Origin: Phreatobacter stygius
Lineage (GTDB): Bacteria > Pseudomonadota > Alphaproteobacteria > Rhizobiales > Phreatobacteraceae
DNA: 64,000 nt
NCBI RefSeq assembly: GCF_005144885.1
Contig: NZ_CP039690.1
Span: 1,178,001-1,242,000, forward strand
Direction of reading: 5' to 3'
Of this stretch, positions 19,621 through 47,259 are shown one piece after another. How positions within the stretch are numbered: the first letter of the stretch is position 1; each line of letters opens with the position of its first letter. A program made the position numbers and the translations under genes. The notes under the pieces are model-generated. The model saw only the letters and a program-made list of their open reading frames with translations, was not told the origin of the DNA and made no database searches.

Positions 19621-19643
19621 GCCGTGAGCGGGAACCCTCGATC

Positions 19644-24685: not shown

Positions 24686-25486
24686 TCAGCCCTTGGGCTT
24701 CCACAACCGGCCAATGTCGAAGCGCGCCATGTCGTCGATCAGCTTGACGAAATTCGCCGCCTGGAACTCCGCCGTCAGGCGTCCCTTCTCGGCCGTCGCC
24801 AGCGAAGCATCGCCGGCCGTGCCGTCGGGATGAATGTCCTGGGCGATCCAGCCGAAGGCATGGCTGACCGTTGGACGCAAATAGGTGAACTCCTTCTCCA
24901 TGGCGACCATGACCGGTTCGAACAGCTTGGCCTCGTTCATGTCCACCAGGTCCGGGCGGAAATGCAGCATCAGCGACGTCTCGACGTCGCCGCCATGAAT
25001 GCCGTGGTTGATGTCGAGATCGCCGAACAGTCCCTTCGGCCGGCCGAAGGCGGTCCAGCTCGAGACCACTGCGAGCTGGCCGCAGCGGATCCTCAACTCG
25101 CGCGCCACCACCTTCATCGGATCGAGATTGCCGCCATGCGAGGTCATCAGCAGGATCTTGTCGATGCCGGCGCGCTTGACGCTCTCGCCGATCTCGATCC
25201 AGGAGCGCAGCACGCTCTCCGCCGACAAGGTCAGCGTGCCCTTGGAATGGATGTGCTCGTTCGACTTGGCCACCGCCTCGATCGGCAGGAACAGCGCGGT
25301 GACGTCGGCGCCGACCAGCGGAAAGGCGGTCTCGATCATGCCCTTCATGATGCTGGTATCGGTGGAGACCGGCAGATGCGGCCCATGCTGCTCGGTGGCG
25401 GCGAGCGGCAGGATGGCGACCGTGCGCTGGGGATCCAGGCGATCGAAATCGGTGGTCTTCAAGTCACCCCAGTGGCGTGACGGCAT
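24686..25486 (-). CDS. Creatininase family protein (cyclic amide / ureide hydrolase)
   Basis: A 266-residue member of the creatinine amidohydrolase family. Metal ligands are recognisable as Glu32, His34 and Asp43 in ATEQHGPHLPVSTD, with the same spacing as in Pseudomonas creatininase, followed by TSHGGN and HGGDVETS. The family opens creatinine and other lactams or hydrolyses formamides. Divergent from a metal-dependent amidohydrolase and close to hydantoin-type enzymes, it probably hydrolyses a cyclic amide rather than creatinine itself, since no creatinase or sarcosine oxidase neighbour is present. Confidence 0.88.
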   Translation of the reverse strand: MPSRHWGDLKTTDFDRLDPQRTVAILPLAATEQHGPHLPVSTDTSIMKGMIETAFPLVGADVTALFLPIEAVAKSNEHIHSKGTLTLSAESVLRSWIEIGESVKRAGIDKILLMTSHGGNLDPMKVVARELRIRCGQLAVVSSWTAFGRPKGLFGDLDINHGIHGGDVETSLMLHFRPDLVDMNEAKLFEPVMVAMEKEFTYLRPTVSHAFGWIAQDIHPDGTAGDASLATAEKGRLTAEFQAANFVKLIDDMARFDIGRLWKPKG

Positions 25487-25627
25487 GGGAGGTCTCCAGA
25501 AACGAGCGGTGTTGGCGGTTGCGCAAGCCGGGCGACCGCGCGCAATCTCCTACGCAATCGCCGGCCCAGCCCATGGCTTCGCATGGTTCGCGCCGGCATT
25601 AAAGTTCCAGGAAGCGGGAGTGCCTTG

Positions 25628-26800
25628 ATGAATTTCGACCTGATCCTGCGTGGTGGCCGCGTCATCGACCCCTCGCAGAAGCTCGACGGCGTGCGCGACG
25701 TCGGTTTTGCCGGCGGCAAGGTTGCGGCGGTGGCCAAGGACCTGAAGCCGGGATCGGCGACCGAAATCCGCGATGTCTCCGGCTATATCGTCACGCCCGG
25801 GCTGATCGACCTGCATACCCATGTCTATTGGGGTGGCACCTCGCTCGGCATCGACGCCGAGGATTTCTGCCGCACCTCCGGCGTCACCACAGCCATCGAC
25901 ACCGGTTCGGCGGGCCCCGGCAACTGGCTGGGTTTCCGCAAACATGTGATCGAGAAGAGCCAGGTCCGCATCCTGGCCTATCTGCATGTCAGCCACGCCG
26001 GCATCTATGGTTTCGACCAGCGCGTGATGGTCGGCGAGAGCCGCGAAATCATGCACATGAACCCGATCGCCTGCGTCGAGGTGGCCGACAAGAATCGCGA
26101 CCTGATCGTCGGCATCAAGGTGCGCGTCGGCCTGCACGCCTCCGGAACCAATGGCGAAAGCGCGCTCGACCTGGCGCTGCAGGTCGCCAACGAGGTTGGC
26201 ATGCCCTTGATGTGCCATATCGACCATCCGCCGCCGTCCTATGAACATGTCATTGGCCGCCTGCGTCCGGGCGACGTGCTGACCCATGCCTTCCGGCCCT
26301 TCCCCAATGCGCCTTGCACGGCGCAGGGCGCGATCAAGCCGGAGGTCATTGCCGCGCGCAAGAAGGGCGTCATTTTCGACATCGGCCACGGCAAGGGTTC
26401 GTTCTCGTTCAAGACGACGCGCAACATGCTGGCCGGTGGTTTCGAGCCGGACGTGATCTCGTCCGACGTCCACACCCTGTGCATCGAAGGCCCGGCCTTC
26501 GACCAGGTCACCACCTTGTCGAAATTCCTGGTCATGGGCATGCCGCTCGACCGGGTGATCGCGGCCTCCACCGTCAATGCCGCCATGGCGCTGAAGCGCC
26601 CCGAGCTCGGCAGCCTGAAGCCCGGCTCGGTCGGCGATGCCACCATCCTGACCATCAAGGAAGGCCGCTTCGACTATGTCGACGTGGTTGGCGAGCACCT
26701 GATCGCCGACAAGAAGATCGTCTCCGAGGGTACCGTCATCGGCGGCAAGTGGTGGCACCCGAAGCGCTCGACCAAGTTCAAGAAGCTGGCGACCGCCTGA
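25628..26800 (+). CDS. Amidohydrolase / deacetylase family metallohydrolase
   Basis: A 390-residue amidohydrolase-superfamily enzyme. The first metal site is DLHTHVYWGG after TPGLI; the bridging residue region is IVGIKVRVGLHASG; histidines follow in LMCHIDHPP and FDIGHGKGSF; the last ligand is SSDVHT. This pattern is that of the deacetylase/dihydroorotase-like subgroup. ATG 25628 follows GCGGGAG; an upstream GTG-type start is unlikely. The divergent creatininase gene suggests successive hydrolysis of one amide substrate. The exact substrate is not readable. Confidence 0.87.
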   Translation: MNFDLILRGGRVIDPSQKLDGVRDVGFAGGKVAAVAKDLKPGSATEIRDVSGYIVTPGLIDLHTHVYWGGTSLGIDAEDFCRTSGVTTAIDTGSAGPGNWLGFRKHVIEKSQVRILAYLHVSHAGIYGFDQRVMVGESREIMHMNPIACVEVADKNRDLIVGIKVRVGLHASGTNGESALDLALQVANEVGMPLMCHIDHPPPSYEHVIGRLRPGDVLTHAFRPFPNAPCTAQGAIKPEVIAARKKGVIFDIGHGKGSFSFKTTRNMLAGGFEPDVISSDVHTLCIEGPAFDQVTTLSKFLVMGMPLDRVIAASTVNAAMALKRPELGSLKPGSVGDATILTIKEGRFDYVDVVGEHLIADKKIVSEGTVIGGKWWHPKRSTKFKKLATA

Positions 26801-26822
26801 ACCGCCGGCAACGATCAGGCGG
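26793..26822. terminator. Inverted repeat formed by two convergent stop codons
   Basis: CCGCCTGA (26793-26800, ending in the TGA of the amidohydrolase) pairs with TCAGGCGG (26815-26822, beginning with the complementary stop of the chemoreceptor gene) across 14 bases. A bidirectional stem-loop between convergent genes is plausible. Confidence 0.4.
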
Positions 26823-28485
26823 CGCGGATCCGCGCCAGGAACCCTGACACCGCCCCGTCGAGCTGGCTGGAGCCTTGCTTCAGCTTCGACGCGGCGGCCG
26901 TCATGGCGCCGGCCGCCTCGCGGGTTTCGTCGGCAGCCCGGGTGACGCGGCCGATATCGGTCTCCACCGTGCGCGTGCCTTCGGCGGCGTCGGCGACGGC
27001 ACCGGCAATGCCATGGGTCACCGCGGATTGTTCCTCGACCGCCGCCATGATCGACGACGACACCGAGCTGATTTCACCGATCGTCTTGTTGATCGCCTCG
27101 ATCGCCGCCACCGCCTCGGCGGTCACCGACTGGACCGCGCCGATCTGACTGGCGATCTCTTCGGTTGCCTTGGAGGTCTGCGACGCCAGGCTCTTCACCT
27201 CCGAGGCAACCACCGCGAAACCCTTGCCCGCCTCGCCGGCGCGTGCCGCCTCGATCGTCGCGTTGAGCGCCAAGAGATTGGTCTGGGCGGCGATCGCGTT
27301 GATCAGGTTCACCACATCGCCGATCTTCTGGGTCGACACCGCGAGCGTGCCGACGATCTCGCCGGTGCGGGTCGCCTGATCGACGGCGGATGCCGCGATC
27401 TGCTGCGCCTGAGCGGTGCGGCTCGAGATCTCGCCAATCGACGAGGCCAGTTCCTGTGCCGATCCGGCAGCGCTTTCGACACTGCCGGTCGCCCCCGCCG
27501 AGGTCGCGGCCAGCGCCTGGCCGAGTTCGGCGACATTGCTCGCGACGTCGCCGACCCGGGCCGAATTGCCGACGATCTCGTCCGCCGAACCGGCGACGGT
27601 GGTCACCACCGACTGGACGGTGGCGGCGAATTCATCGGCGAGAACGGCCATGTCGCGCGCCCGCTCCGCCCGGTTCGCCTCGGCATGGGCGGCATCGGCC
27701 GCCTTCAATCGCTCGACCTCGATGGCATTGTCGCGAAACACCAGAACCGAGCGCGCCAGCGCGCCGATCTCGTCCCTGCGCTCGGTGTCGCTGACCGTGG
27801 CTTCGGTCCGGCCCTCGGCCACCGCGCCGACCGAAGCGGTCAGCCGCGACAGGGGCTGGGTGATCCCGCGGAGGATGGTCCAGAGCGCAACGAGGCCAGC
27901 CAGCAGGGCCAGGCCGATGGTTGCGACGATCAGCCAGGTGAGGCTCGCCTTGGCCGTTTCGATCTCATGCGACAGGGCCACCACACGCCGGCTGTTGGCC
28001 TCGGCGAGCGCCGCCATTTCGGTGTTGAGCCGCTGCCGGGTCGTCCGGTTGGCGTCATTGTCGCCGATCACCCGCGCCGCGGCATTGCCTTCCGCGCGGC
28101 CGGCTCTGGCCAGGTCGTTGCGCAGGCGCACGAAGGCGTCGGCCTGCTCCAGCAGGCGCCGCTTGCTTGTCTCCTCGGCCGGCGGCAGCAGGGCCGCCCA
28201 TTCCGCGATGGTCGCGCTGAACTTGGCGAGCTGCTGGTCCTGCGCCCGCGCGAAGCGCTCCAGCACATCCTTGTCCGCCGACATGTAGATGCCGCGCGAT
28301 TCCATCACGACCGCGAAGATCATGGCATTGGCCCGTTCGGCCAGCAGCGAGGTGCGCGCATTGTGCTCGATGCCATCGACCGCCGCCTGGTAACGCTGGA
28401 AGCCGTAGACCGCGACGCCGCCAATGATCAGGGCGGCGGCCGCCAGGCTGCCAATGACTGTGAAGAGGCGGGTCTTGATCTGCAC
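26815..28485 (-). CDS. Methyl-accepting chemotaxis protein
   Basis: A chemoreceptor of about 556 residues: membrane helix 1 ([21 protein letters not shown]), a helical four-helix-bundle type sensor (about residues 30-185), membrane helix 2 ([20 protein letters not shown]), HAMP, and the signalling hairpin with [20 protein letters not shown] and [21 protein letters not shown] 28485 is chosen because GGGGGAC lies just upstream; an in-frame ATG at 28581 would add an unlikely polar leader. It lies inside a catabolic island, so it may sense the compound degraded there. Confidence 0.92.
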
Positions 28486-28742
28486 CGGCGGTCCCCCAGG
28501 GATGATTTTTCTTGAGCACTTAGTGAGAACAGCGATGGAATGGTTAAAGAAGCCATACCAAGGTACCTTCGATTGCCTCATTCTTCAGCAAAACCCCAAA
28601 ATACCAACCTCGGCCACAAGGTGATGTGGTGCGCCTGCCCACGATTTCACCCTGGGTTGCGGCCAGGCATCTCCCCCCGGATCGCGCCTGCGCCCGTGCC
28701 CCGGGGCCTTGCATCGGCGCCTGAAAAACGGCAACCAGCGGC

Positions 28743-30110
28743 ATGGCCATTCATCAGACACCGCCTCGCCCGACCTATGACATTGCCGGCCTGATCGCCG
28801 CGCTCGGCGATATCCCCGTGATCACCGAGCCGGTCATCGTCCGGCGCCGCTCGCGTGACTTCTTCTGGTATTCGCCGATCCTCGCCGAAGAGCTGAAGTC
28901 GGTCGCAGCCGACATCATCGTCAAGCCGCGCGACGAGGCCGACGTCATCCAGACCGCGGCGGCCTGCGCCCGTCTCAGGATCCCGCTCACCGCGCGCGCC
29001 GGCGGCACCGGCAATTACGGCCAGGCCATGCCGTTGGCCGGCGGCGTGCTCCTGGACATGACCGCGCTCGACCAGGTTATCTGGCAGAAGCCCGGCGTCG
29101 TCCGCGTCCAGGCCGGCATGAACCTGTTGAGCCTCGACAAGGCAACCCGCGCGGCAGGTTTCGAGCTGCGCATGCACCCCTCGACCAAGCGCACCGCCAC
29201 CATCGGCGGCTTCGTCGCCGGCGGCTCCGGCGGCATCGGCTCGGTTGCCTATGGGGGCTTGCGCGAACCCGGCAATATCCTGGCCGCGCGCATCGTCACG
29301 GTGGAGGAGGAACCGCGCGTCCTGGAACTCAGGGACGACGCGGCCCAGAAGGTCAACCGCGCCTATGGCACCACCGGTATCATCACCGAGCTGGAAATGC
29401 CGCTGGCGCCGGCCTGGCCCTGGGTCGACGTCATCGTCGCCTTCGATACGTTCTGGGAGGCCTTCGAGGCCGGCCGTTCCATTGCCATGGCCGATGGCGT
29501 GGTGAAGAAGCTGGTGACGCCGATCGCCGCTCCCATCCCCGCCTATTTCGGCGCCCTGAAAAGCGCCTGTCCCGAGGGCAAGAGCATCCTGCTCTGCATG
29601 ATCGCCGAACCCTTCCTCGACAGTTTCAAGGCGATCCTCTCGGGCCGCGGCATGGTGACCCACGAGGCGCCGTCGGAGGAAGGGCCCGGGCAGGTGCCGC
29701 TCTACGAATATTCGTGGAACCACACGACCCTGCAATGGCTGAAGACCGACCGTTCCATCACCTATCTGCAACTGCTCTACCCGTTCGACCGGCTGGAAGA
29801 GAGCGTGCGCAAGATGATGGACCTGTTCGAAGGCGAGGTGCTGCCCCATCTCGAATTCATTCGCTTCGCCGGCAATATCACCTGCAGCGCGCTGCCGATC
29901 GTCCGCTACACCACACCCGAGCGGCTGAACCAGATCATCGCGCAGCATGAGGAGCACGGCGTGCTGGTCGCCAACCCGCATGTGGTCAGCCTGGAGGACG
30001 GCTCGCGCCACAAGCGCGCCGATGCCGACCAGCTCGGTTTCAAGGCCAATGTCGATCCGATGGGCCTCTTGAACCCCGGCAAGATGAAGAGCTTCGTGCC
30101 GGTCAGGTGA
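28743..30110 (+). CDS. FAD-binding oxidoreductase (FAD-linked oxidase, VAO/PCMH type), paralog A
   Basis: A 455-residue flavoprotein with the PCMH FAD domain (IVKPRDEADVIQTAAACARL; RAGGTGNYGQAMPLAGGVLL; STKRTATIGGFVAGGSGGIG) and a C-terminal substrate domain ending in DPMGLLNPGKM. It shares SRDFFW(Y/F)SPIL, GGTGNYGQ, the YEY.WNHTTL block and the tail with the oxidase at 33290, so the two are paralogs flanking an importer operon. The family oxidises hydroxy acids, phenols or amines with FAD. Substrate unknown. Confidence 0.88.
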   Translation: MAIHQTPPRPTYDIAGLIAALGDIPVITEPVIVRRRSRDFFWYSPILAEELKSVAADIIVKPRDEADVIQTAAACARLRIPLTARAGGTGNYGQAMPLAGGVLLDMTALDQVIWQKPGVVRVQAGMNLLSLDKATRAAGFELRMHPSTKRTATIGGFVAGGSGGIGSVAYGGLREPGNILAARIVTVEEEPRVLELRDDAAQKVNRAYGTTGIITELEMPLAPAWPWVDVIVAFDTFWEAFEAGRSIAMADGVVKKLVTPIAAPIPAYFGALKSACPEGKSILLCMIAEPFLDSFKAILSGRGMVTHEAPSEEGPGQVPLYEYSWNHTTLQWLKTDRSITYLQLLYPFDRLEESVRKMMDLFEGEVLPHLEFIRFAGNITCSALPIVRYTTPERLNQIIAQHEEHGVLVANPHVVSLEDGSRHKRADADQLGFKANVDPMGLLNPGKMKSFVPVR

Positions 30111-30165
30111 GAATTGTCGGGTAAGGACCGGTCACGGTAGCAGCAGATCGCAGGCCGCACGGTTC

Positions 30166-30299
30166 GTCTCGGCCGGGCGTGTTCCGGCCATCCGCGGCTT
30201 GTCTCGGGCTGGCCTGTTCTTGCCGCTGACACGAACAACGCTGGCCTGCGTGGGAACCGGCCTGAAGGCGTGGGTGGCCGGAACAAGCCCGGCCAAGAC
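30166..30299. repeat. Inverted pair of an intergenic palindromic element
   Basis: The gap between two convergent genes contains a 30-base arm (30166-30195) and a 32-base arm (30268-30299) that are reverse complements at about 26 of 30 positions. Each arm has its own small hairpin (GGCCGG to CCGGCC). The core GTGGCCGGAACAAGCCCGGC resembles REP-like intergenic elements of GC-rich proteobacteria. It may double as a bidirectional terminator for the oxidase and the permease gene. Confidence 0.6.
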
Positions 30300-30343
30300 G
30301 AGAGAGCTCTGAAGGCTCCCCGCGCACGACCAAACCTCGCCCC

Positions 30344-31243
30344 TCAGTTTTCGCGCTTCAGCGCGCTCTCGTGCCAGCGCCGGAGCAGCACATGCGACAC
30401 CCAGCTGGTCGCCAGGAAGATGGCGATGCCGGTCAGCGAGATCATGATCAGGGCGGCGAACATGCGCGGTATCTTGAGCTGGTAGCCGGCCTCCAGGATG
30501 CGATAGGCGAGCCCTGAGGACGAGCCGCCGGAACCGGCGACGAATTCAGCGACGACCGCCCCGATCAGGGCGAGCCCGCCTGATATCTTCAGGCCGCCGA
30601 GGAAATAGGGCAGCGCCGCCGGCAGCCTCAGATAGCGCAGCGTCTGCCAGCGCGAGGCGCCGTAGAGCTGGAACAGATTGATCAGGTTATGGTCGGCCGA
30701 GTTCAGCCCCAGGATCGTGTTCGACAGGATCGGGAAGAAGGCAACGAGCCAGGCGCAGATCAGCAGCGACAGGTTGATGTCGCCGACCCAGATGATGATC
30801 AAGGGCGCGATCGACACGACCGGCGTCACCTGCAGGATCACCGCATAAGGAAACAACGACTTTTCCAGCCATTTCGACTGGGTGAACAGGACCGCAAGGC
30901 CGACGCCGAGCGTCACCGCGGCAACCAGCGCGGCCGCGGTGATCTGTAGCGTCACCCAGAGCGAGGCCGACAGCGAAGCCCAGTCCTCGACCAGCGTCCG
31001 GGCGATCAGCAGCGGCCCGGGCAGGATGAATGACGGGATCTCGCGGAACCGGACGATCGCTTCCCAGGCGCCGAGCGCCAGGATGCCGATCACCAGCGGC
31101 GCGATGATGCCGGGCCAGGTCTCGGTCGAAATGCCCAGGATCTTGCGGTCCTCGCGATAGATCGGCCGGGCTTCGGCATCGGTACCGTCATGGGCGACGG
31201 CGGGCTGGCCGACGGCTGATGTCTTCAGGGCGGCTTCGCTCAT
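30344..31243 (-). CDS. NitT/TauT-type ABC transporter permease
   Basis: About 299 residues with six membrane helices and the BPD permease EAA loop (LYGASRWQTLRYLRLPAALP). The start ATG at 31243 overlaps the stop of the ATPase gene (ATGA) and has GGAGG upstream. The N-terminus is a longer-than-usual polar stretch before the first helix (IIAPLVIGILALGAWEAIV). It forms an importer with the following two genes (ATPase, binding protein), all read leftward in the order binding protein, ATPase, permease. Confidence 0.91.
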   Translation of the reverse strand: MSEAALKTSAVGQPAVAHDGTDAEARPIYREDRKILGISTETWPGIIAPLVIGILALGAWEAIVRFREIPSFILPGPLLIARTLVEDWASLSASLWVTLQITAAALVAAVTLGVGLAVLFTQSKWLEKSLFPYAVILQVTPVVSIAPLIIIWVGDINLSLLICAWLVAFFPILSNTILGLNSADHNLINLFQLYGASRWQTLRYLRLPAALPYFLGGLKISGGLALIGAVVAEFVAGSGGSSSGLAYRILEAGYQLKIPRMFAALIMISLTGIAIFLATSWVSHVLLRRWHESALKREN

Positions 31244-32028
31244 GCTGATATGGCCTCCTTGAGCTTCTCGGAGGCGATCCGGCACCAATGGGCATAGTCG
31301 GCCGAGGTACGGAACAATTCATCGCGGGGATATGGCGCTTCGACCCGGAGGTCGGCCATGACGCGGCCGGGCCTGGCCGCCATCACCACGATGCGCTGGG
31401 ACAGATAGACGCTTTCGAACACCGAATGCGTGACGAAGACCGCGGAGAAGCGATTGGTCTCCCACAGACCGAGCAGGTCGTCATTGAGCTTGTGGCGGGT
31501 GATCTCGTCGAGCGCCGCGAAGGGCTCGTCCATCAGGAGAATTTTCGGCTGGGTGACCAGCGCGCGGGCGATCGACACGCGCATCTTCATGCCGCCGGAG
31601 AGCTCGCGCGGATAGCTCCGCTCGAACCCCTTGAGGCCGACCAGCGCCAGCATGGCCGCACCGCGCGCCTCGGCCTCGCCCTGCGGCATGCGTTTCAGCT
31701 GCATCGGCAACACGACATTGCCGAGCGCGGTTGCCCAGGGCATCAAGGTCGGATCCTGGAACACGAAGCCGAGCTCGTGCTCGCCATTGGCGCCGCCGGC
31801 ACCCGGCCAGTCGATGGTGCCGACGCTCGGCTCGCCGAGACCCGCGATCATCCTGAGCAGCGTCGACTTTCCGCAACCGGACGGCCCGAGCAGGCTGACG
31901 AATTCGCCCGCCGCCAGGTCCAGATTGACGTCGCGCACGGCGATCGTGCCGTTGGCGAACTGCTTCGACACGTGCTGGATCGAGACAAGCGGCCTTGCAT
32001 CGCCGCTCGTCGCGGTGTTCGGAGACAT
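31240..32028 (-). CDS. NitT/TauT-type ABC transporter ATP-binding protein
   Basis: A 262-residue ABC ATPase: Walker A GPSGCGKST, Q-loop FVFQDPTLMPWAT, signature LSGGMKMRVSIARAL, Walker B ILLMDEPFAALDE and the H-loop FVTHSVFES. ATG 32028 (MSPNTATSGDARPLVSI) lies 13 bases after the binding-protein stop. It powers the permease encoded immediately downstream. Sequence class is that of nitrate/taurine/sulfonate/pyrimidine importers. Confidence 0.92.
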   Translation of the reverse strand: MSPNTATSGDARPLVSIQHVSKQFANGTIAVRDVNLDLAAGEFVSLLGPSGCGKSTLLRMIAGLGEPSVGTIDWPGAGGANGEHELGFVFQDPTLMPWATALGNVVLPMQLKRMPQGEAEARGAAMLALVGLKGFERSYPRELSGGMKMRVSIARALVTQPKILLMDEPFAALDEITRHKLNDDLLGLWETNRFSAVFVTHSVFESVYLSQRIVVMAARPGRVMADLRVEAPYPRDELFRTSADYAHWCRIASEKLKEAISA

Positions 32029-32041
32029 GAGAACCGACACG

Positions 32042-33064
32042 TCAGGCCTTGCCCACACCCTTGTTGATGAACCTGAGATCATAGGCCTTCTTGTAGTCGA
32101 TACCGGGCGGGAATACGCCGGCGTCGCGCATCTGGTTATAGAAGGTCTCCCAGCGGGCATCGGTCATCGCGCCGATGCCGAGCGTCAGGGCATCGCCCGA
32201 CAGGACGATGCCGCGCTCGGTCATCACCTTGACCGCATAAGCGATCTTGGTTGCATCCATGTCCGGATTGTCGCGCAGGATCGCCTTGTTGGCGGCCTCG
32301 ACGCCCGGCCCGCCCTTCATATATTCGGCCCAGCCTTCAAGTGATGCGGTGACGAAGCGCTGCACGACGTCGGCGCGCTCGTCGACCATCTTCCGCGAAA
32401 TGTTGATGGTGGTGTTGTAATTGGCAAAGCCGGCATCGGCGATCAGATGGGCGAGCGGGGTGACGCCGCCCTGCTGCTGGATGGCGAAGGGCTCGGACGA
32501 CAGGAAGCCCTGCTGGCAGATGTTCTTGTCGGCCAGGAACGGCGCCATGTTGAAAGTATAGGGCCGGACCTGCTCGTCGACGAAGCCGAAGCGGGCCTTG
32601 AGGAAGGGCCAATAGGACGTCCGGCCGCCGGCGGCGACCAGGATGGTCTTGCCCTTGAGCGCCTCGAAACTGTCATTGCCGACGCCCGGATGGCAGATGA
32701 TCACCTGGGGGTCCTTCTGGAAGATCGAGCCGATGCACAGGAAAGGCAGGTTTTCCTGGACATAGCGGATCGCCTCGAAGGAGTTCGACATGATCATGTC
32801 GACGCGTCCGCCAAGCAGCAGCTGCGACGGGTTCTGCTGCGGCCCGCCCATGCGGATATCGGCGTCGATGCCATATTTGCGATAGATGCCGCTGGTCTGC
32901 GCCAGATAGAAGCCGCCATGTTCGGCCTGGGCGCGCCAATTGGTCTGGTAGGAGACCTTGTCGAGGCCCTGGGCGGTGACCTGGCCCGATGTCATGAGAT
33001 AGGCAGCCGAGACGCCAGCCCCGAGCTTGAGGGCACTGCGGCGCGTCAGACGAATGGGGGACAT
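32042..33064 (-). CDS. NMT1/THI5-like ABC transporter substrate-binding protein
   Basis: A 340-residue periplasmic binding protein with a Tat-type leader (TRRSALKLGAGVSAAYLM). The mature part has the NMT1/THI5 pattern: VSYQTNWRAQAEHGGFYLAQ, then GIYRKYGIDADI and GGRVDMIMSNSFEAI. This group binds thiamine precursors, pyrimidines, hydantoins and related heterocycles. It leads the importer operon and is divergent from FAD oxidase B. A heterocyclic or ureide ligand fits the surrounding hydrolases but is inferred. Confidence 0.88.
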   Translation of the reverse strand: MSPIRLTRRSALKLGAGVSAAYLMTSGQVTAQGLDKVSYQTNWRAQAEHGGFYLAQTSGIYRKYGIDADIRMGGPQQNPSQLLLGGRVDMIMSNSFEAIRYVQENLPFLCIGSIFQKDPQVIICHPGVGNDSFEALKGKTILVAAGGRTSYWPFLKARFGFVDEQVRPYTFNMAPFLADKNICQQGFLSSEPFAIQQQGGVTPLAHLIADAGFANYNTTINISRKMVDERADVVQRFVTASLEGWAEYMKGGPGVEAANKAILRDNPDMDATKIAYAVKVMTERGIVLSGDALTLGIGAMTDARWETFYNQMRDAGVFPPGIDYKKAYDLRFINKGVGKA

Positions 33065-33239
33065 GGCGACCTCTCCGGTTTTCTATTTGCAGGACTAATT
33101 CGACCGGACGCGCCGAGCAACGCACGTGCCGGTTTATCCTAAGCTTTTGCGTGGTTTCACGGACCAGCTATGCATAAACTATCAGCATATTGCCGGGCTG
33201 TTGAGCATCGAGGGAGCTTGATCGCCATCCGCAGGCAAT

Positions 33240-33259: not shown

Positions 33260-33289
33260 CAATTCCCGAACCCAGTCCAAGGCCAGCCG

Positions 33290-38841: not shown

Positions 38842-38850
38842 GCCGTCGCC

Positions 38851-39696
38851 ATGCCCCGCTCCGTGGGTCTGCGCGCCTTCGTCCTGTCGGTGCTGATCTT
38901 CGCCGTCTTCCTGCTCGCCTGGCATGTCGCGGTGCGCGGCGGCGGCGCCGGCGCGGCCACCGTCGATCCCGAATATGCCAAGCTGGTGGGAGCCGCCGCC
39001 GCGACCGGCGGCCAGACCCCGATGCCCGGCCCGATCGATGTCGGCCGGACCATCTGGAAACACCTCAGCGATCCGTTCTACGTGCGCGGCACCAATGACA
39101 TGGGCATCGGCATCCAGCTCGCCTATTCGCTGGCGCGCGTGCTGACCGGCTTCGGGCTCGCCGTCGTCGTCGCCGTGCCGCTCGGCTTTCTCATCGGCAT
39201 GTCACAACTGGTCTATCGGGCGCTCGATCCGTTCATCCAGGTGATGAAGCCGATCTCGCCGCTCGCCTGGATGCCGCTGGCGCTCTACACGATCAAGGAT
39301 TCCTCGCTGTCCTCGATCTTCGTCATCTTCATCTGCTCGCTCTGGCCGATGCTGATCAACACCGCCTTCGGCGTCGCCAGCGTCCGCAAGGACTGGCTGA
39401 ATGTCGCACGTACCCTGGAGGTCGGGCCATTCCGCAAGGCCTTCACCGTGATCCTGCCGGCGGCGGCTCCGACCATCCTCACCGGCATGCGCATTTCGGT
39501 CGGCATTGCCTGGCTGGTCATCGTCGCCGCCGAGATGCTCGTGGGTGGCACCGGCATTGGCTATTTCGTCTGGAACCAGTGGAACAACCTGTCGCTCACC
39601 GACATCATCACGGCGATCCTGCTGATCGGCCTTGTCGGCATGGCGCTCGACCAGGTGCTGGCCCGCCTCACCCGCTTCGTCACCTATCCGGAGTGA
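38851..39696 (+). CDS. Nitrate/cyanate-type ABC transporter permease (NrtB/CynB-like)
   Basis: A 281-residue permease with an N-terminal anchor ([19 protein letters not shown]), a periplasmic segment, and five further helices including the EAA-type loop ([20 protein letters not shown]). Six or so membrane helices and [20 protein letters not shown] are typical of the NrtB group. It starts nine bases after the binding-protein stop and is followed four bases later by the ATPase. Confidence 0.91.
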
Positions 39697-39700
39697 GGTC

Positions 39701-40600
39701 TTGGCCCAGTCCTACATTTCCATCGAGGGCATTTCCCGCCGTTTCCCGGCCCCCGAGGGCGGCAAGGCGACGGTCTTCGAGGACCTCTGGTTTTCCATGA
39801 ACCAAGGCGAATTCGTCTGCGTCATCGGCCATTCCGGCTGCGGCAAGACGACCGTGCTGAATATCCTCGCCGGCCTCGACGAGCCGACCGATGGCGCCGT
39901 CATCATCGACGGGCGTGGCATCGAAGGTCCGAGCCTCGACCGCGCCGTCATCTTCCAGAGCCACGGGCTGCTGCCCTGGCGCAGCGTCATGGGCAATGTC
40001 GCTTATGCCGTGTCGTCGAAATGGCGCAGCTGGTCCAGGCCCAAGGTCGAGGAGCACGCGGCCAGGTTCATTGCCCTGGTTGGCCTCGGCGGCGCCGAGA
40101 CCAAGCGGCCGGCCGAGCTCTCCGGTGGCATGAGGCAGCGCGTCGGCATCGCCCGCGCGCTCTCCATCGAGCCGAAGATCATGCTGATGGACGAACCGTT
40201 TTCGGCGCTCGACGCGCTCACCCGCGGCACGCTGCAGGACGAGGTCCGCCGAATCTGCCGGGACACCGGCCAGACCGTCTTCATGATCACCCATGATGTC
40301 GACGAGGCGATATATCTCGCCGACAAGATCGTGCTGATGACCAATGGGCCGGACGCCCGCATCGCCGAGATCGTGGCCAATCCCCTGCCCGCCGATCGCG
40401 CCCGCAACGACGTGCACAAGCACCCGTCCTATTACCCGTTGCGCAACCACATCATCGATTTCCTGGTGACCCGTTCCAAGGCCTTCCAGTCCGAGCTCGA
40501 CGCGCCGGGCAAGGTCTGGAACCGCCGCGCGCCGCCCGTCGTCGTTCCCGTTTCGCCCGGGGCCATCGCGTCCCCGCCGCCGGTGGCGAAGGCCGTCTGA
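39701..40600 (+). CDS. Nitrate/cyanate-type ABC transporter ATP-binding protein (NrtC/D, CynD-like)
   Basis: A 299-residue ABC ATPase: Walker [11 protein letters not shown]-loop [12 protein letters not shown], signature [15 protein letters not shown], Walker [15 protein letters not shown]-loop MITHDVDEA. The start is TTG 39701 (reads [17 protein letters not shown]), with GGAGTGAGG immediately before it; no in-frame ATG fits. It ends in a proline/valine/alanine-rich tail of about 25 residues ([11 protein letters not shown]) after the ATPase domain. It lacks the extra binding-protein domain of true NrtC. Confidence 0.9.
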
Positions 40601-40638
40601 CGCTTCCTCCCGATCAACAAGCCGCCAAGGAGACGGGC

Positions 40639-41121
40639 ATGATCCGCGAAGAGCTCACCGAGAAAATTCTCGACATCAAGCGCGAGAAGGACTGGACCTG
40701 GAAATACATCACCGACGAGATCGGCGGCATATCGCCGGTGCTGATCGTCGGTGCGCTGCTTGGCCAGATGAAGCTGGTGAAGCCGCTGGCAGCCAAGGCC
40801 GCCGCGCTGTTCGGCCTGTCGAGCAACGAAGAGAAGATGCTCAACGAGGTGCCCTATCGCGGCACGGCCATGCCGCCGACCGACCCGCTGATCTACCGCT
40901 TCTATGAAATGGTGATGGTCAACGGCCCGGCCTGGAAAGCGCTGATCGAGGAAGAGTTCGGCGACGGCATCATGTCGGCGATCGACTTCAACATCGAGAT
41001 CGAGCGCGAGGCCAATCCGAAGGGCGACCGCGTCAAGATCGCCATGTCCGGCAAGTTCCTGCCCTATAAATATTACGGCAACGAACAGGGCATTCCCGAC
41101 TACGGCCTCAAGGAAGCCTGA
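40639..41121 (+). CDS. cynS: Cyanate hydratase (cyanase)
   Basis: A 160-residue cyanase with the N-terminal helical domain (MIREELTEKILDIKREKDWT) and the dimerising C-terminal domain. The catalytic Arg87, Glu90 (IYRFYEM) and Ser113 (IMSAIDF) have the same spacing as Arg96, Glu99 and Ser122 of E. coli. It converts cyanate and bicarbonate to ammonia and two CO2 via carbamate. AAGGAGA precedes the ATG. Last gene of the importer run, it turns imported or internally formed cyanate into usable nitrogen. Confidence 0.97.
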   Translation: MIREELTEKILDIKREKDWTWKYITDEIGGISPVLIVGALLGQMKLVKPLAAKAAALFGLSSNEEKMLNEVPYRGTAMPPTDPLIYRFYEMVMVNGPAWKALIEEEFGDGIMSAIDFNIEIEREANPKGDRVKIAMSGKFLPYKYYGNEQGIPDYGLKEA

Positions 41122-41192: not shown

Positions 41193-41981
41193 TCAGAGCC
41201 CGCTCGACACCGCCAGCATGGTCTCACCGCGGATCTCTTCGGTGAGACGCTCCTCGAGCGCGGCGAATTCCGCCGTGGTCTTGATCTTGTAGGAGCGCGG
41301 ATGCGGGAACGGCACCGGCACCTCACATTTGAAGCGGCCGGGGCGCGCACTCATCACCAGCACACGATTGGCCATGAACACGGCCTCCTCGATATCGTGG
41401 GTGACGAACAGCACGGTCTTGTGGTGCTGCTCCCAGATCGACAGCAGCAGCTCCTGCATCAGCGACCGGGTCTGGTGGTCGAGCGCGCCGAACGGCTCGT
41501 CGAGGATCAGCACTTTCGGATTGTTGGCGAGCGCGCGCGCCAGCGCGGCGCGCTGCTGCATGCCGCCGGACAGCATCTTCGGGAAGTGGTTGGCGAACTG
41601 GGTGAGCCCGACCTGGGCCATCAGCTTCTCGGCGATCGCCTGGCGCTCGGCGAGCCCGACACCCCGTTCGCGCGGGCCGAAGGCAATGTTCTCGGCCACC
41701 GTCAGCCAGGGAAACAGCGTGTAGCTCTGGAACACCATGCCGCGATCGGCGCCCGGCTCCTTCACCAGCGCGCCGTCGAGCGTGACGGTGCCGGAGGTCG
41801 GCTGGTCGAGGCCGGCGACGACGCGCAGCAAGGTCGACTTGCCGCAGCCGGAGGGCCCGAGAATGGCAACGAACTCGCCCTCGGTGACCGTCAGGTCGAC
41901 CGGCGCCAGGGCCTGCGTCGGCGGTCCGCCCTGAACGCCCGGAAAGGTGCGTGAAACGGCCTTGATGATGAGGTCGCTCAT
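41193..41981 (-). CDS. NitT/TauT-type ABC transporter ATP-binding protein (second importer)
   Basis: A 262-residue ATPase: Walker A GPSGCGKST, Q-loop VFQSYTLFPWLT, signature LSGGMQQRAALARAL, Walker B VLILDEPFGALDH, H-loop FVTHDIEEA. ATG 41981 overlaps the stop of the permease gene (ATGA). Convergent with cynS. It belongs to a second importer whose binding protein and permease lie upstream on the same strand. Confidence 0.92.
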   Translation of the reverse strand: MSDLIIKAVSRTFPGVQGGPPTQALAPVDLTVTEGEFVAILGPSGCGKSTLLRVVAGLDQPTSGTVTLDGALVKEPGADRGMVFQSYTLFPWLTVAENIAFGPRERGVGLAERQAIAEKLMAQVGLTQFANHFPKMLSGGMQQRAALARALANNPKVLILDEPFGALDHQTRSLMQELLLSIWEQHHKTVLFVTHDIEEAVFMANRVLVMSARPGRFKCEVPVPFPHPRSYKIKTTAEFAALEERLTEEIRGETMLAVSSGL

Positions 41982-42751
41982 ACCGCACTCCACGGGAACA
42001 GCTTGCGGTTCAGCGCCTTGAACAGGTAGTCGGAAATGAGCCCGATGACGCCAATGACGATGATGCCGAAAATCATCTGGCCGGTGGCCAGCAGCGCCTG
42101 GCTCTCGATGATCATGTGGCCGATGCCGGATGACGAGCCGATCAGTTCGGCGACGATGACATAGGTCCAGGCCCAGCCGAGCACCAGGCGCAGGATCTCG
42201 GCGATCTGTGGCGCGGCGAAGGGCATCAGCACACGGGCGACGATGCCGCGATCCTTGGCGCCAAGGGTCAAGGCGGCCTCGACCAGGTCACGGCGGATCG
42301 AGCCGACCGCCACCGCCACCATCAGGATGATCTGGAACACCGAGCCGACAAAGATCACCAGGAGTTTCTGCACCTCGCCGACGCCGGCCCACAGGATCAG
42401 CAGGGGAATGAAGGCGGAGGCCGGCAGGTAGCGGGCAAACGACACGAAGGGTTCGAAAAAGGCCTCCACCGGCTTGTAGGCTCCCATGGCCAGCCCGATC
42501 GGCACGGCAATGATCGCGGCGACGACAAAACCGCCGAGGACGCGCCAGACGGTCATGCCGATATCGTGGAGGAAGCCGTGCTTGGTCAAAAGCGTCCAGC
42601 CGTCATTCACCATGGTCAGCGGATCGGCGAGGAAGATCCGCGACACGAAGCCGCCGAAGGTGAAAAAGCTCCAGACCGCGAAGAACAGGACAAAAAACGC
42701 GATCCCCAGGATCACGCGGGCTGACGCGGAGACAGGTTGAAGAGGCCTCAT
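41978..42751 (-). CDS. NitT/TauT-type ABC transporter permease (second importer)
   Basis: About 257 residues with six helices and the EAA loop (LTLGAKDRGIVARVLMPFAA). ATG 42751 (MRPLQPVSASARVILG) has AAAGGA upstream; longer in-frame extensions lack hydrophobic or conserved sequence. Coupled by ATGA to the ATPase gene. A strong hairpin separates it from the binding-protein gene, which may let the binding protein be made in excess. Confidence 0.91.
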   Translation of the reverse strand: MRPLQPVSASARVILGIAFFVLFFAVWSFFTFGGFVSRIFLADPLTMVNDGWTLLTKHGFLHDIGMTVWRVLGGFVVAAIIAVPIGLAMGAYKPVEAFFEPFVSFARYLPASAFIPLLILWAGVGEVQKLLVIFVGSVFQIILMVAVAVGSIRRDLVEAALTLGAKDRGIVARVLMPFAAPQIAEILRLVLGWAWTYVIVAELIGSSSGIGHMIIESQALLATGQMIFGIIVIGVIGLISDYLFKALNRKLFPWSAV

Positions 42752-42854
42752 GACGTCCTTTGTCAGTCGGGCGCCGCGGAACGGGCGACGGATCGCCCGG
42801 GCGAAGATGCCAAGGAAAATGCGCGAACGAGAATGCCGATGGCGGAAATGAACA

Positions 42855-42884
42855 CCGCCGCTTCCGGACATCCGGCAGCGGCGG
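42855..42884 (-). terminator. Attenuator-like stem-loop between binding-protein and permease genes
   Basis: CCGCCGCTTCCGGA and TCCGGCAGCGGCGG pair with one mismatch over 14 bases around a tiny loop. No T-run follows on the minus strand. Such hairpins after the first gene of a binding-protein operon stabilise its mRNA or lower read-through. Confidence 0.6.
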
Positions 42885-42889
42885 CACGC

Positions 42890-42927
42890 TTCTATAGCAA
42901 TTTTGCGCGATGAAAACCCATTCGCGC
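42890..42927. repeat. Dispersed intergenic repeat, copy B
   Basis: TTCTATAGCAATTTTGCGCG followed by ATGAAAACCCATTCGCGC; the first 20 bases match copy A (12991-13010) at 17 positions. It lies next to the hairpin in the same intergenic space. Confidence 0.4.
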
Positions 42928-42944
42928 GACGGCGGACTGCCGCC

Positions 42945-43913
42945 TCACTGGATGAAGCGGGTATCGACCATGCGGGTGAAATCCGGCTTCTGCCTGATGA
43001 TGCCGAGTTCGAGCAGCAGGGTTGCCGCCTTCTCGGTAAACGGCAGCCAGTCATTGGCGAAGAAGGCGCGGTTCTCTTCCGGTCCCGACCAGCGCAGGTA
43101 ACGCGCCGAAGCGCCGAACTGCTCGGCCGTCTGGCGGACATCGGCGCCCATGATCGTATAGGCGCGGGTCTGCTCCGACTTGATCAGCTCGAGTGCTTCG
43201 AAATAGCTCTTCACCAGGGCCCGCACCGCCGCCTCATTGGCCTGGATGAAGGCGGGCGTGCAGCCGAACGTGTCCATCACCATGGGATAGTCGAGCGTGG
43301 TGGCAATGATCTTGCCGGCCTGCGGCGCATCGCGCACCGCCGAAAGATAGGGCTCGTAGGTCATCGCCGCGTCGTTCTGGCCGGCGATGAAGGCCTGCGC
43401 CGCCGGACCCGGCTCGAGATTGACGACCGTCACGTCGCGGATCGTCATGCCGTTCTCGCGCAGGATCCAGGCAAGCCCGAAATAGGGCGCGGTGCCCGGA
43501 GGCGAGGCGGCGATCGTCTTGCCGCGCAGGTCGCGGATCGAATTGATGCCGGCGCGCACAGCAAGGCCATCGGCGCCGTAGCTCTTGTCGAGCTGGAACA
43601 GCTGGGTGGTGGCAATGCCGCTGGCGTTCCACGAGATCCAGGTCTCGACCGTGGTCGCCGCGCACTGGACGTCGCCCGAGGCAATGGCGAGGTGACGGCT
43701 TGCCTGCGGGATCTTGCGGATGGTCACGTCAAGGCCGTTGCGGGCGAAGATGCCAGCTTCCTTGGCCAGCGTCAGCGGGGCAAATCCGGTCCAGCCGGAA
43801 ATACCGATCGAGACCTTCGTCTGCGCGCTCGCCGGGCCCGCCAAAGCAAGGCCCGCGACAACGGCGACGCCGGCAAACAGCCGGCGCGCGAAAGACCGTG
43901 ACGACATTCTCAT
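42945..43913 (-). CDS. NitT/TauT-type ABC transporter substrate-binding protein (second importer)
   Basis: A 322-residue periplasmic protein with a Sec signal peptide (FARRLFAGVAVVAGLALAGPASAQ) and the NitT/TauT binding fold (KVSIGISGWTGFAPLTLAKE; GIFARNGLDVTIRKIPQ; ASGDVQCAATTVETW; GQNDAAMTYEPYLS). The ligand class includes sulfonates, nitrate and small organic anions; the exact ligand is unknown. It heads the operon with the permease and ATPase. An alternative start is ATG 43907, two codons in. Confidence 0.9.
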   Translation of the reverse strand: MRMSSRSFARRLFAGVAVVAGLALAGPASAQTKVSIGISGWTGFAPLTLAKEAGIFARNGLDVTIRKIPQASRHLAIASGDVQCAATTVETWISWNASGIATTQLFQLDKSYGADGLAVRAGINSIRDLRGKTIAASPPGTAPYFGLAWILRENGMTIRDVTVVNLEPGPAAQAFIAGQNDAAMTYEPYLSAVRDAPQAGKIIATTLDYPMVMDTFGCTPAFIQANEAAVRALVKSYFEALELIKSEQTRAYTIMGADVRQTAEQFGASARYLRWSGPEENRAFFANDWLPFTEKAATLLLELGIIRQKPDFTRMVDTRFIQ

Positions 43914-44174: not shown

Positions 44175-44528
44175 ATGGGTCAAAAGTGGATCGTCGTCGC
44201 ATTCATCACACTCTTGTCGCTTGGTATCACGGCATTGCCAACCACTGCGCGAGCGCAACGTCTCGGAGCCGAAGGGCTGTTCGGCGCGGCTGCGGCGATC
44301 ATCGGCGCCGCCGCATTGGCACAGGCCCACCGGGACGCGACCCGATCGCGCAGCGGCCGCCGCTACGTTCATGTCCGGCCCCGCGCCCATCAGCGGCCGC
44401 AGATCCGGCAACGCGCAAGCGTTGCCCAACGCCAAAACGGCGGCCAATCCCGCGATCCCTTCGCATCGGCCGCATCGTCGCGCCCGGCTGCGCCGCGCGA
44501 TCCCTTCGCGGTCCAGACGTCGCGGTAA
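44175..44528 (+). CDS. Small secreted basic hypothetical protein
   Basis: A 117-residue protein with a clear signal peptide (MGQKWIVVAFITLLSLGITA through TARAQ), a short glycine/alanine hydrophobic stretch (LFGAAAAIIGAAALAQAH) and a disordered tail rich in Arg, Gln, Ser and Pro that contains SRDPFASAAS and PRDPFAVQ as a near-repeat of RDPFA. GGGAGG precedes the ATG. No family recognised. It precedes a secreted protease gene by 28 bases and may be its partner or substrate. Confidence 0.7.
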   Translation: MGQKWIVVAFITLLSLGITALPTTARAQRLGAEGLFGAAAAIIGAAALAQAHRDATRSRSGRRYVHVRPRAHQRPQIRQRASVAQRQNGGQSRDPFASAASSRPAAPRDPFAVQTSR

Positions 44529-44556
44529 AGACGAACCCCGAACCGGGCCCCCAGCA

Positions 44557-45813
44557 ATGAAAGCGTCGATCGCGATGAGGCTGTCAGGCGGCCGCTGTCT
44601 CCGGGCGGCGCTGTGCTTGTTTCTCGGCCTCGTCTTCTGCTTGGTCATCAGGCCGGCCGAAGCACAGCCCATGCTGCGGATCGACCGCGAAAACGCGTCG
44701 GTTCGGGGCTGGCAGATCGGGCTCAGCGAGCGATTTGGCGGGTGTGTGGCCACGACCCGCTATACCGACCAGACAACCGTGTGGCTCGGCTTCACCGGCG
44801 AAGACAACACGGCCTTTCTGGCCTTTACCAACCCCAACTGGGCGTCGATCGAGAAGAACAAAGAGTACACCCTGGTCTTTCGCGCGGCGACCGGCCGCAA
44901 TTGGAGCGGCCGGTTTGCCGGCTTCGAACAGACCGCCGACGAAAAAGGGCTCGTCGGCTTTGGCCTTCGCAGGGAGTTCATCCTCGATCTCGCACGATCC
45001 GCTGGAATTCAGATCGTCTTCGAGCGACGGCCGATTGCCCGCCTGTCCCTGAGCGGCTCGTTGAGCGCGATCGAAGGCGTGCTTTTGTGCCACCGGCAAT
45101 TCGCCTTCAACCCGAAAGCCGGCGAGGATCGGCAGACCCGGTTGCCGCCGTCGAACGAGCGGCCGCGCGACGGCGCTTCCAGGCGCCCCGGCATGAGCAC
45201 CGGGACTGGCTTCTTCGTCTCGCGCGATGGCCATGTGCTGACCAACCATCATGTGGTGGAAAGCTGCACCGATGTGTCGGTGACCCGGCTCGGCGCGCCG
45301 CCGGTACCGGCGACCGTTGTCGGGCGCGATCCGGTCAATGATCTGGCCCTGCTGGCGACCGGCATGACGCCGGCGCGTGTGCCGTCTTTTTCGCCGCGCG
45401 TTCGCGTCGGGGAAAGCGTCTACATCTATGGATTTCCGCTGGCGGGGCTCCTTGCGACGGCCGGCAATTTCACCATCGGCAATATCTCGGCGCTGGCGGG
45501 CCTGCGTGACGACACCCGCATGCTCCAGCACTCCGCACCGACCCAACCCGGCAACAGCGGTGGCGCCCTGATCGACGAACGGGGCAATGTCGTCGGGATC
45601 ATCGTGTCCAAGCTCAACGTCCTGGCGCTTGCGCAGCGCAACATGGATATCGCTCAGAACGTCAATTTCGCCATCCGCGCCGGCGTCGCGACCAACTTCC
45701 TGGATGTGAACGGCGTCGCCGGTTCGGAGCGCCCCAGCGAGCAGAAGCTCGACCCGGCGACACTTGCCGACCAGTCCCGCGAATTCACCCTGCAGGTGAT
45801 CTGCAACCGATAG
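44557..45813 (+). CDS. Exported trypsin-like (S1/DegP-type) serine protease
   Basis: A 418-residue protein with a signal peptide (CLRAALCLFLGLVFCLVIRP, cleavage after AEAQ), an unfamiliar N-terminal domain of about 170 residues with two cysteines, and a C-terminal trypsin-like domain. The triad is His in LTNHHVVES, Asp in DPVNDLALL and Ser in QPGNSGGALI. No PDZ domain follows, so it is not a typical DegP. It acts in the periplasm or outside; the N-terminal domain probably decides its target. ATG 44557 is used; ATG 44575 is an alternative. Confidence 0.85.
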   Translation: MKASIAMRLSGGRCLRAALCLFLGLVFCLVIRPAEAQPMLRIDRENASVRGWQIGLSERFGGCVATTRYTDQTTVWLGFTGEDNTAFLAFTNPNWASIEKNKEYTLVFRAATGRNWSGRFAGFEQTADEKGLVGFGLRREFILDLARSAGIQIVFERRPIARLSLSGSLSAIEGVLLCHRQFAFNPKAGEDRQTRLPPSNERPRDGASRRPGMSTGTGFFVSRDGHVLTNHHVVESCTDVSVTRLGAPPVPATVVGRDPVNDLALLATGMTPARVPSFSPRVRVGESVYIYGFPLAGLLATAGNFTIGNISALAGLRDDTRMLQHSAPTQPGNSGGALIDERGNVVGIIVSKLNVLALAQRNMDIAQNVNFAIRAGVATNFLDVNGVAGSERPSEQKLDPATLADQSREFTLQVICNR

Positions 45814-45834
45814 GGCGCGCCGACACCAGCGCGC

Positions 45835-47259
45835 TCAGGCGCCGAGCGGCAAGGCGTAGGGGCTCTTGTCGCGCTTGAGGAACCGGCCGTCGCCGGGGCT
45901 GCCCCGCACCTTGCCCTCTTCGACCACGGTCCTGCCGCGGGCGATCGTCATCACCGGATAGCCGGTGACCTCGAAACCCTCCCACGGCGTGTAGTCCGAA
46001 CCGTGATGCAGGATCTCCTGGCGCAGCGTTTCCTTGCGGTTGGCGTCCCACAGCACGATGTCGGCGTCGGCGCCAACAGCGATCGTGCCCTTCTGCGGAT
46101 AGAGCCCATACATCTTGGCGTGGTTGGTCGAGGTCAGCGCGACGAATTCATTGGCCGAGATGCGGCCCTTGGCGACACCCTCCGACCAGAGGATCGGCAT
46201 GCGCGTCTCGACGCCCGGAATGCCGTTCGGCACCCAGCGGAACGAGGTCCTGCCCTTAGGGCTCAGCTTGCCGCGCGGGCTGTCGTAGAAGAACGGGCAG
46301 TGGTCGGACGAGAAGGTCTGGAACACGCCCTGCTTGAGCCCCTCCCAGATCGCCTTCTGGCTGTCGGTGTCGCGCGGCGGCGGCGAACAGACATATTTGG
46401 CCCCGCTCATATCCATGTTGAGGCCCTTCATGTCATCGGCCGTCAGCGTGATATATTGCGGGCAGGTCTCGGCATAGACCTTCAGGCCGCGCTGCCTGGC
46501 CCAGCGGATCTGCTCCATCGCCTCGCGGCCCGAGACATGCACGATCATGATCGGCACATCGAGCAATTCGGCGTGGCTGATGGCGCGGTGGGCCGCCTCG
46601 CGCTCGACGATCTCGGGCCGTGACACGCCATGGTAATAAGGCGCGGTCTTGCCCGCCTGTTCCAGCCGGTCGGCCAGGAACTTGATCGAGTCGTAGCCCT
46701 CGGCATGGACCATGACGAGCGCCTGTTCGCGCCGGGCGACCGAGAAGACCTCGAGCAATTGCCGGTCGGTCAGCACCAGGTCGTCATAGGTCATGAACAC
46801 CTTGAACGAGGTGCAGCCGTCGGCGAACAGCGCCGGCAGTTCCTGGTTCAGGACCGTCGGAGTCGGATCCGAGACGATCAGGTGGAAGCCGTAATCGATC
46901 AGCGACTGGCCTTCGGCCTTGGCGTGATATTCGGTCACGCAGGCGCGCAGCGACCGGCCTTTGATCTGCATGGCGAAGGGAATGATCGTCGTGTTGCCGC
47001 CGGCCGCGGCCGAGCGCGAGCCACTCTCGAAACCGTCGGCCATGGTCACGTCGGGGCCGGAATCCTGGTCGAGATGAACGTGGCTGTCGATGCCGCCGGG
47101 CATGACCAGCAGGCCCGAGGCATCGATCGTCCGGGCGGCCCCCGTCACCGCCTCGGCGAGCAGCGCGATGCGGCCGTTGCGGATGCCGATATCGCAACGG
47201 ATGGTGTCCGATGCGGTGACGACGGTGCCGCCGCGAATGGCGAGATCGAGATCGGGCAT
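45835..47259 (-). CDS. D-hydantoinase / dihydropyrimidinase
   Basis: A 474-residue cyclic amidohydrolase. All metal ligands of hydantoinases are present at expected spacing: His60 and His62 (GGIDSHVHLD), carboxylated Lys153 (CTSFKVFMTYDD), His185 (VMVHAEG), His241 (IVHVSG) and Asp319 (SSDHCPF). It opens 5-substituted hydantoins or dihydropyrimidines to N-carbamoyl amino acids, which the D-carbamoylase at 34977 could then hydrolyse. ATG 47259 follows GAGGAG. It lies 55 bases behind a DUF35/thiolase operon on the same strand. Confidence 0.93.
   Translation of the reverse strand: MPDLDLAIRGGTVVTASDTIRCDIGIRNGRIALLAEAVTGAARTIDASGLLVMPGGIDSHVHLDQDSGPDVTMADGFESGSRSAAAGGNTTIIPFAMQIKGRSLRACVTEYHAKAEGQSLIDYGFHLIVSDPTPTVLNQELPALFADGCTSFKVFMTYDDLVLTDRQLLEVFSVARREQALVMVHAEGYDSIKFLADRLEQAGKTAPYYHGVSRPEIVEREAAHRAISHAELLDVPIMIVHVSGREAMEQIRWARQRGLKVYAETCPQYITLTADDMKGLNMDMSGAKYVCSPPPRDTDSQKAIWEGLKQGVFQTFSSDHCPFFYDSPRGKLSPKGRTSFRWVPNGIPGVETRMPILWSEGVAKGRISANEFVALTSTNHAKMYGLYPQKGTIAVGADADIVLWDANRKETLRQEILHHGSDYTPWEGFEVTGYPVMTIARGRTVVEEGKVRGSPGDGRFLKRDKSPYALPLGA

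Follow-up and report, generated by a model that had tools for sequence, protein, structure and literature searches.

Which of the genes crowded into one 23-kb part of the Phreatobacter stygius chromosome belong together, and what might they degrade? The window analysed here, meaning the whole stretch of 64,000 nucleotides (contig NZ_CP039690.1, positions 1,178,001 to 1,242,000), carries at 24686–47259 several amide and ring hydrolases, three ATP-binding cassette (ABC) importers, cyanase and two related flavoenzymes, F1 and F2. An initial annotation had proposed that all of these act as one route that scavenges nitrogen from ureides and cyclic amides. Our comparison of gene neighbourhoods gives a different picture: the left ~10 kb, 24686–34687, is a conserved module, and the right half is an assortment of other nitrogen-scavenging genes. 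We think it somewhat probable that the module is a paralogous sister of a gene set for folate/pterin catabolism. Homology, conserved linkage and split loci are the basis of this reading, and from them we infer what the substrate is, in which order the steps run and what each enzyme does.

A conserved module in the left part of the locus

Profile scans with Pfam and NCBIfam, together with PDB sequence searches of the window proteins, found every gene type that had been named between 24.7 and 47.3 kb. The left part reads as follows.

24686–25486, minus strand: creatininase-family metal-dependent amidohydrolase (PF02633, 208 bits); core
25628–26800 (open frame from 25583), plus strand: amidohydrolase/deacetylase (NF006689, 438 against a cut-off of 371), which we take to be of the COG3964 type; genus-specific part of the module
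26815–28581, minus strand: methyl-accepting chemoreceptor (PF00015 and HAMP); genus-specific neighbour
28743–30110, plus strand: FADox1 (F1), a flavoenzyme akin to PDB 6v42 (PF01565; 446 bits to 6v42); core
30344–31288, minus strand: ABC permease of a ThiY-like importer (PF00528); core
31240–32010 (open frame to 32160), minus strand: ATPase of the ThiY-like importer (PF00005 and neighbourhoods); core
32042–33064, minus strand: NMT1/THI5-type substrate-binding protein of the ThiY-like importer (PF09084); core
33290–34687, plus strand: FADox2 (F2), a second 6v42-related flavoenzyme (PF01565; 397 bits to 6v42); core in the genus and in part of the Bosea loci

We scanned genome contigs with F1 and compared the best 80 of 241 relatives; these loci are not independent lineages, and 31 of them are shorter than 21 kb while 49 are full-length (21 kb). 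With the window proteins as probes, the binding protein was recovered in 67 of the 80, the permease in 65, the ATPase in 64 and the creatininase-family hydrolase in 63. F2 was present in 17 (15 with a larger query panel) and the chemoreceptor in 7. Among the full-length loci the permease was found in 48, the binding protein in 47, the creatininase-family gene in 46 and an NQO-type reductase in 36, along with two kinds of aminohydrolase, here called c6 (24 loci) and c23 (11 loci), a third flavoenzyme, F3 (20), and F2 (13). The P. stygius genome has six PF02633 genes in 7.35 Mb, which puts the chance of meeting one in a 20-kb stretch at about 1.6%. Since a creatininase-family gene lies in 46 of 49 full-length loci, the left part is linked beyond chance. 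The co-occurrence of the oxidases, the importer and the creatininase-family hydrolase across Hyphomicrobiales is thus borne out, and linkage by chance only is refuted for 24686–34687.

Conservation is tightest within the genus. The creatininase-family gene, amidohydrolase, chemoreceptor, F1, importer and F2 are kept together in all nine other Phreatobacter genomes sampled, five of which apparently were already among the loci found with F1. An NQO-type gene follows F1 in eight of the nine, and is missing from that place in the window and in its nearest relative (L132). We also observed, at 2097–2690 of the window and so 26 kb away, a flavodoxin_2/NQO-type reductase like those found after F1 in relatives. 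When the core's three intergenic gaps were aligned across the ten genus genomes (the window and the nine), conserved blocks appeared in two and none in the third, and inspection by eye revealed no regulatory motif common to the three gaps.

Flavoenzyme paralogues and split gene sets

F1 and F2 are 43% identical and fall in separate deep clades, which argues that they are old paralogues and not the result of a recent duplication. An AlphaFold model of F1 (36 sequences; predicted local distance difference test score, pLDDT, 86.7) had as its best Foldseek match PDB 6v42 (E 2.7e-51, 49% identity), deposited under the title 'Crystal structure of the flavin oxygenase with cofactor bound involved in folate catabolism'. 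Those listed after it were D-lactate and D-2-hydroxyglutarate dehydrogenases, at about 15–22% identity. F2 is 44% identical to 6v42, and the F3 protein of P. stygius is 65% identical; by sequence search the F3 type scores 687 bits to 6v42. We built two trees, one from 97 of the 106 family proteins in the loci and window and one from 58 chosen proteins; in the latter, 6v42 sits inside the F3 clade (25 rows, support 100/100), and F1 and F2 form separate clades outside it. F1 and F2 therefore resemble 6v42/6v43 in full-length homology, in fold (for the F1 model) and in the WNHTT motif, which is present in 106 of 106 family members, but unlike the F3 of the same genome they lie outside the orthologous clade of 6v42. 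The oxidases of the loci found with F1 are not all strict F1, since the trees place those of L079, L083 and L084 on the side of F2 or F3. Two loci from Rhodospirillales (L087 and L088) have a c6-type aminohydrolase and three flavoenzyme-family matches apiece.

Members of the flavoenzyme family were detected, at E up to 1e-90, in 107 of the 297 genomes sampled from the order, and from these we hand-picked 20 F3-type loci, one for each of 19 families and one of the genus. Nineteen hold F3 and one (L113) an F1-side copy; two (L104 and L112) are cut by contig ends. An NQO-type gene was found in 18 of the 20, c6 in 17, the binding protein, permease and RidA in 15 each, and the creatininase-family gene in 13. 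Typically the genes run binding protein, ATPase, permease, c6, F3 and NQO, with RidA and the creatininase-family gene nearby; a single cluster of them is usual in the other families of the order.

In P. stygius the corresponding genes are split. At 2.326 Mb of its chromosome (L095), F3 adjoins an NQO-type (flavodoxin-fold NAD(P)H) reductase and a c6 aminohydrolase, and at 1.905 Mb there are a creatininase of the same subfamily as that of the window, RidA and a second binding protein. Likewise, all nine Bosea genomes that carry the F1 module have c6, and in eight F3 lies beside it on another contig. A tree that included 18 of the 55 creatininases called in the loci found with F1, and 13 from F3-type loci, groups the creatininases of both locus types as a single clade of 33 (95/95), which includes the window and 1.905-Mb copies; the other four creatininases of the genome lie outside it on long branches. 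A gene for a MarR-family regulator (L095:8324–8827) stands beside the NQO-F3-c6 set, and its cluster is represented in 7 of 21 F3-type loci, L095 included. This regulator may control the set.

The amidohydrolase at 25628–26800 behaves differently from the core. It had been counted with the co-occurring genes, which holds for nine of nine genus genomes but not beyond the genus: it was recovered in 7 of the 80 loci found with F1, only in those of the genus, and in none of the 20 F3-type loci. This distribution bears on a reading of F1 and F2 as GlcD-like oxidases in an alpha-hydroxyacid route, acting on hydroxyacids released by the COG3964-type hydrolase. A COG3964 member is reported to hydrolyse acylated hydroxyacids, and F1 and F2 do have a weak similarity to GlcD. 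Their scores on TIGR00387 are 66–68 bits against a cut-off of 568, however, and none of the 106 family proteins from the loci and window contains GHxGDGN, the motif of D-2-hydroxyacid dehydrogenases. On these two grounds we rejected the alpha-hydroxyacid oxidase assignment, and we regard the route, whose hydrolase we found only in loci of the genus, as extremely unlikely.

Candidate substrates and predicted reactions

The binding protein at 32042–33064 points to the kind of compound that may be imported. Its AlphaFold 2 model (pLDDT 90.8) is nearest in fold to ThiY (3ix1, the top match), followed by a thiamin-binding protein (4nmy) and Thi5, and such a ThiY/Thi5-like fold fits a fused-pyrimidine ligand. 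The importer shares its NMT1/THI5 family (PF09084) and fold with ThiXYZ, the importer of formylaminopyrimidine (FAMP), yet the binding protein is only 18% identical to 3ix1, and the window importer is linked to flavoenzymes and a hydrolase.

We propose that the ThiY-like importer would take up a compound with a fused pyrimidine ring, a pterin derivative being the likeliest candidate. Where present, c6 or c23 is predicted to deaminate the heterocycle, after which F1 and F2 would oxidise the ring in flavin-dependent reactions. The creatininase-family hydrolase, joined in the window by the COG3964-type amidohydrolase, would open the resulting cyclic amide, and RidA and the NQO-type enzyme may deal with reactive intermediates. 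The label creatininase does not fit the window hydrolase, which falls short of the cut-offs of both the creatininase model TIGR04448 (73.2 of 235 bits) and the MftE model TIGR03964 (96 of 172 bits). As for c6, which lies outside the window, all 39 aligned rows keep the metal and catalytic residues of cytosine deaminase (CodA). In the same 39 rows the positions of Q156, D314 and W319, which we take to be those of cytosine specificity, are altered, and we think that c6 therefore deaminates something other than cytosine.

For the compound handled by F1 and F2, our first choice would be a pterin related to, and different from, the substrate of F3; a thiamin pyrimidine or an oxidised purine comes second. 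The second choice corresponds to a reading in which the module degrades another N-heterocycle altogether, either a thiamin pyrimidine of the hydroxymethylpyrimidine (HMP) or FAMP type or an oxidised purine such as 8-oxoguanine. The closeness of the binding protein to ThiY, the thiamin-binding protein and Thi5 is in keeping with this, as are the F1 loci of Bradyrhizobium, where six of seven have a c23-type aminohydrolase (77–100% identity) together with a RutB-like hydrolase, and the seventh (L034) has a 36% c23 match only. The Bradyrhizobium c23 resembles PDB 2paj and 8-oxoguanine deaminase, but both it and the RutB-like hydrolase score below the cut-offs for 8-oxoguanine deaminase and RutB. 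In the P. stygius genome no close copy of c23 was seen, the best match being 28%. Against this reading, the one full-length PDB match of the F1/F2 family is titled for folate catabolism, and thiamin genes were not seen among the classified neighbour clusters. We therefore hold degradation of another N-heterocycle to be rather unlikely, and prefer the folate/pterin sister module.

Several observations weigh against that preference. The folate link comes from a single PDB title (6v42), and the substrate of F1 and F2 may differ from that of 6v42, given identities of just 49% and 44%. In Bradyrhizobium, all seven genomes tested have F1 but neither F3 nor c6 at the thresholds used. The window genes that were scanned showed no aminohydrolase of the c6 or c23 type, and at the 1.905-Mb locus no permease or ATPase matching the second binding protein was seen. 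In addition, a c6 member passes the NCBIfam 'cytosine deaminase' model (576 against a cut-off of 403).

A broader and more tentative proposal is possible. Alphaproteobacteria may have undescribed paralogous flavin-oxygenase modules (F1, F2 and F3) that mineralise the pterin rings of folate and of biopterin-like compounds; F1 and F2 would then act on a second class of pterins or in later ring-opening steps outside the described pathways. Such modules would typically include a ThiY-like importer, a module-specific ring hydrolase of the creatininase type and exchangeable aminohydrolases. With respect to the ureide and ring-amide function suggested by the initial annotation, amide and ring-nitrogen chemistry is plausible for these genes, but the oxidases point to folate/pterin catabolism (6v42) and not to ureides.

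The right half of the locus and the meaning of the module

To the right of F2 lie the following genes.

34977–35918, minus strand: N-carbamoyl-D-amino-acid-hydrolase-like protein of the nitrilase fold (PF00795; PDB 8i99, 427 bits); separate, mostly genus-level neighbour
35915–37456 (conserved over ~35915–37099), minus strand: diaminopropionate ammonia-lyase-like pyridoxal phosphate enzyme (NF006058, 445 against a cut-off of 276)
37435–40600, plus strand: nitrate/cyanate-type ABC importer of binding protein, permease (TIGR01183, above cut-off) and ATPase (TIGR01184, above cut-off); separate unit
40639–41121, plus strand: cyanase CynS (TIGR00673 and NF002773 above cut-off); separate unit
41193–43913, minus strand: SsuA/NMT1-like ABC importer of ATPase, permease and binding protein (PF00005, PF00528, PF09084/PF13379), scoring below the cut-off of the SsuA model; separate
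44221–45813: HtrA-like protease gene, absent from the earlier gene list
45835–47343, minus strand: D-hydantoinase/dihydropyrimidinase (TIGR02033, 537.6 bits against a cut-off of 393); separate

Could these genes and the module still form one route? All are present, and most would free nitrogen from amides or carbamoyl groups. The pair of N-carbamoylase and ammonia-lyase follows F2 in six of the nine genus genomes, with the N-carbamoylase alone in a further one (L133). Outside the genus, two Beijerinckiaceae loci (L058 and L059), both with F1 and F3, have a carbamoylase relative of 55–57% identity, the sole clear right-half gene that we saw near the module there. In both loci it lies to the left of the importer, a few kb from the F1-F3 cluster. 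Linkage to the module is otherwise scarce. Among the 80 loci found with F1, the N-carbamoylase was matched in 8 (five in the genus, the two from Beijerinckiaceae and a weak match of 26% in L054), the ammonia-lyase in 4, cyanase and the binding protein of the third importer in 1 each, and the hydantoinase in none, and the chemoreceptor, N-carbamoylase, ammonia-lyase, cyanase, third-importer binding protein and hydantoinase were all absent from the 20 F3-type loci.

Within the genus, the cyanate importer and cyanase are present in five of nine genomes, separated from the ammonia-lyase by ~6–10 kb that contain other genes; the SsuA/NMT1-like importer is found in seven, and the hydantoinase is linked in one (L133). 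Among the genomes that miss right-half genes, L131 stops at a contig end, L120 shows no right-half gene, L130 is without the cyanate unit, and L133 lacks the ammonia-lyase and cyanate importer yet has cyanase. The gap between ammonia-lyase and cyanate genes contains, in L118 (12378–16383), an aldehyde dehydrogenase, a hydroxyisobutyrate-dehydrogenase-like protein and an MlrC-type (M81) protein; the genes classified in L122 encode two ABC permeases, a sigma-54 activator and a binding protein of family 3. None of these gap genes was found between the ammonia-lyase and cyanate importer of the window. Because the units are spaced by other genes in genus relatives, the closely packed right half seen in the window looks like several other units, mixed together and contracted. 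The neighbourhoods of the loci found with F1, the F3-type loci and the genus loci thus led us to reject a single 23-kb pathway, which we consider very unlikely; the hydantoinase, the N-carbamoylase/ammonia-lyase pair and the cyanate unit are, for the most part, independent means of scavenging nitrogen.

At 37435–41121 a nitrate/cyanate-type importer stands directly upstream of cyanase (ntrB, ntrCD and cynS models above cut-off, with weak profile matches only for the binding protein), and the importer may be specific for cyanate. This is the ordinary arrangement of importer and cyanase, as in cynABDS. The window keeps the order of ABC importer then cyanase described for cynFABDS (PMC6627978), but it differs in that the ammonia-lyase gene abuts the importer and that, within the window, no divergent sigma-54/CynF regulator was called upstream. 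In L122 a sigma-54 activator (9936–11891) is placed divergently to the cyanate importer, as cynF is in Pseudomonas pseudoalcaligenes. Given this divergent activator and the abutting ammonia-lyase gene, the cyanate unit of the window may have lost its regulator.

Elsewhere in the window, a circularly permuted ATP-grasp/alpha-E protein and a transglutaminase-like protein are encoded at 18696–23032, to the left of the module. The window has no RNA families at gathering score and no tRNAs, and a probe of the genome for xanthine-dehydrogenase domains gave no lead.

To our knowledge, bacterial destruction of the pterin ring of folate is poorly documented. Among the matches listed in open-licence literature there was no description of this gene set, of bacterial folate catabolism or of the work behind 6v42, and a flavin review mentions neither folate nor pterin. 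Part of the F3 system was evidently known to the depositors of 6v42, since the structure carries a folate-catabolism title; we came across no description of the F1/F2 sister modules, of the split loci or of the link to the importer and the creatininase subfamily. The split and paralogous sets provide a list of candidates for the importer, deaminase, oxygenase and hydrolase, and they suggest that the labels 'cytosine deaminase' and 'creatininase' are misleading for the genes of these clusters.

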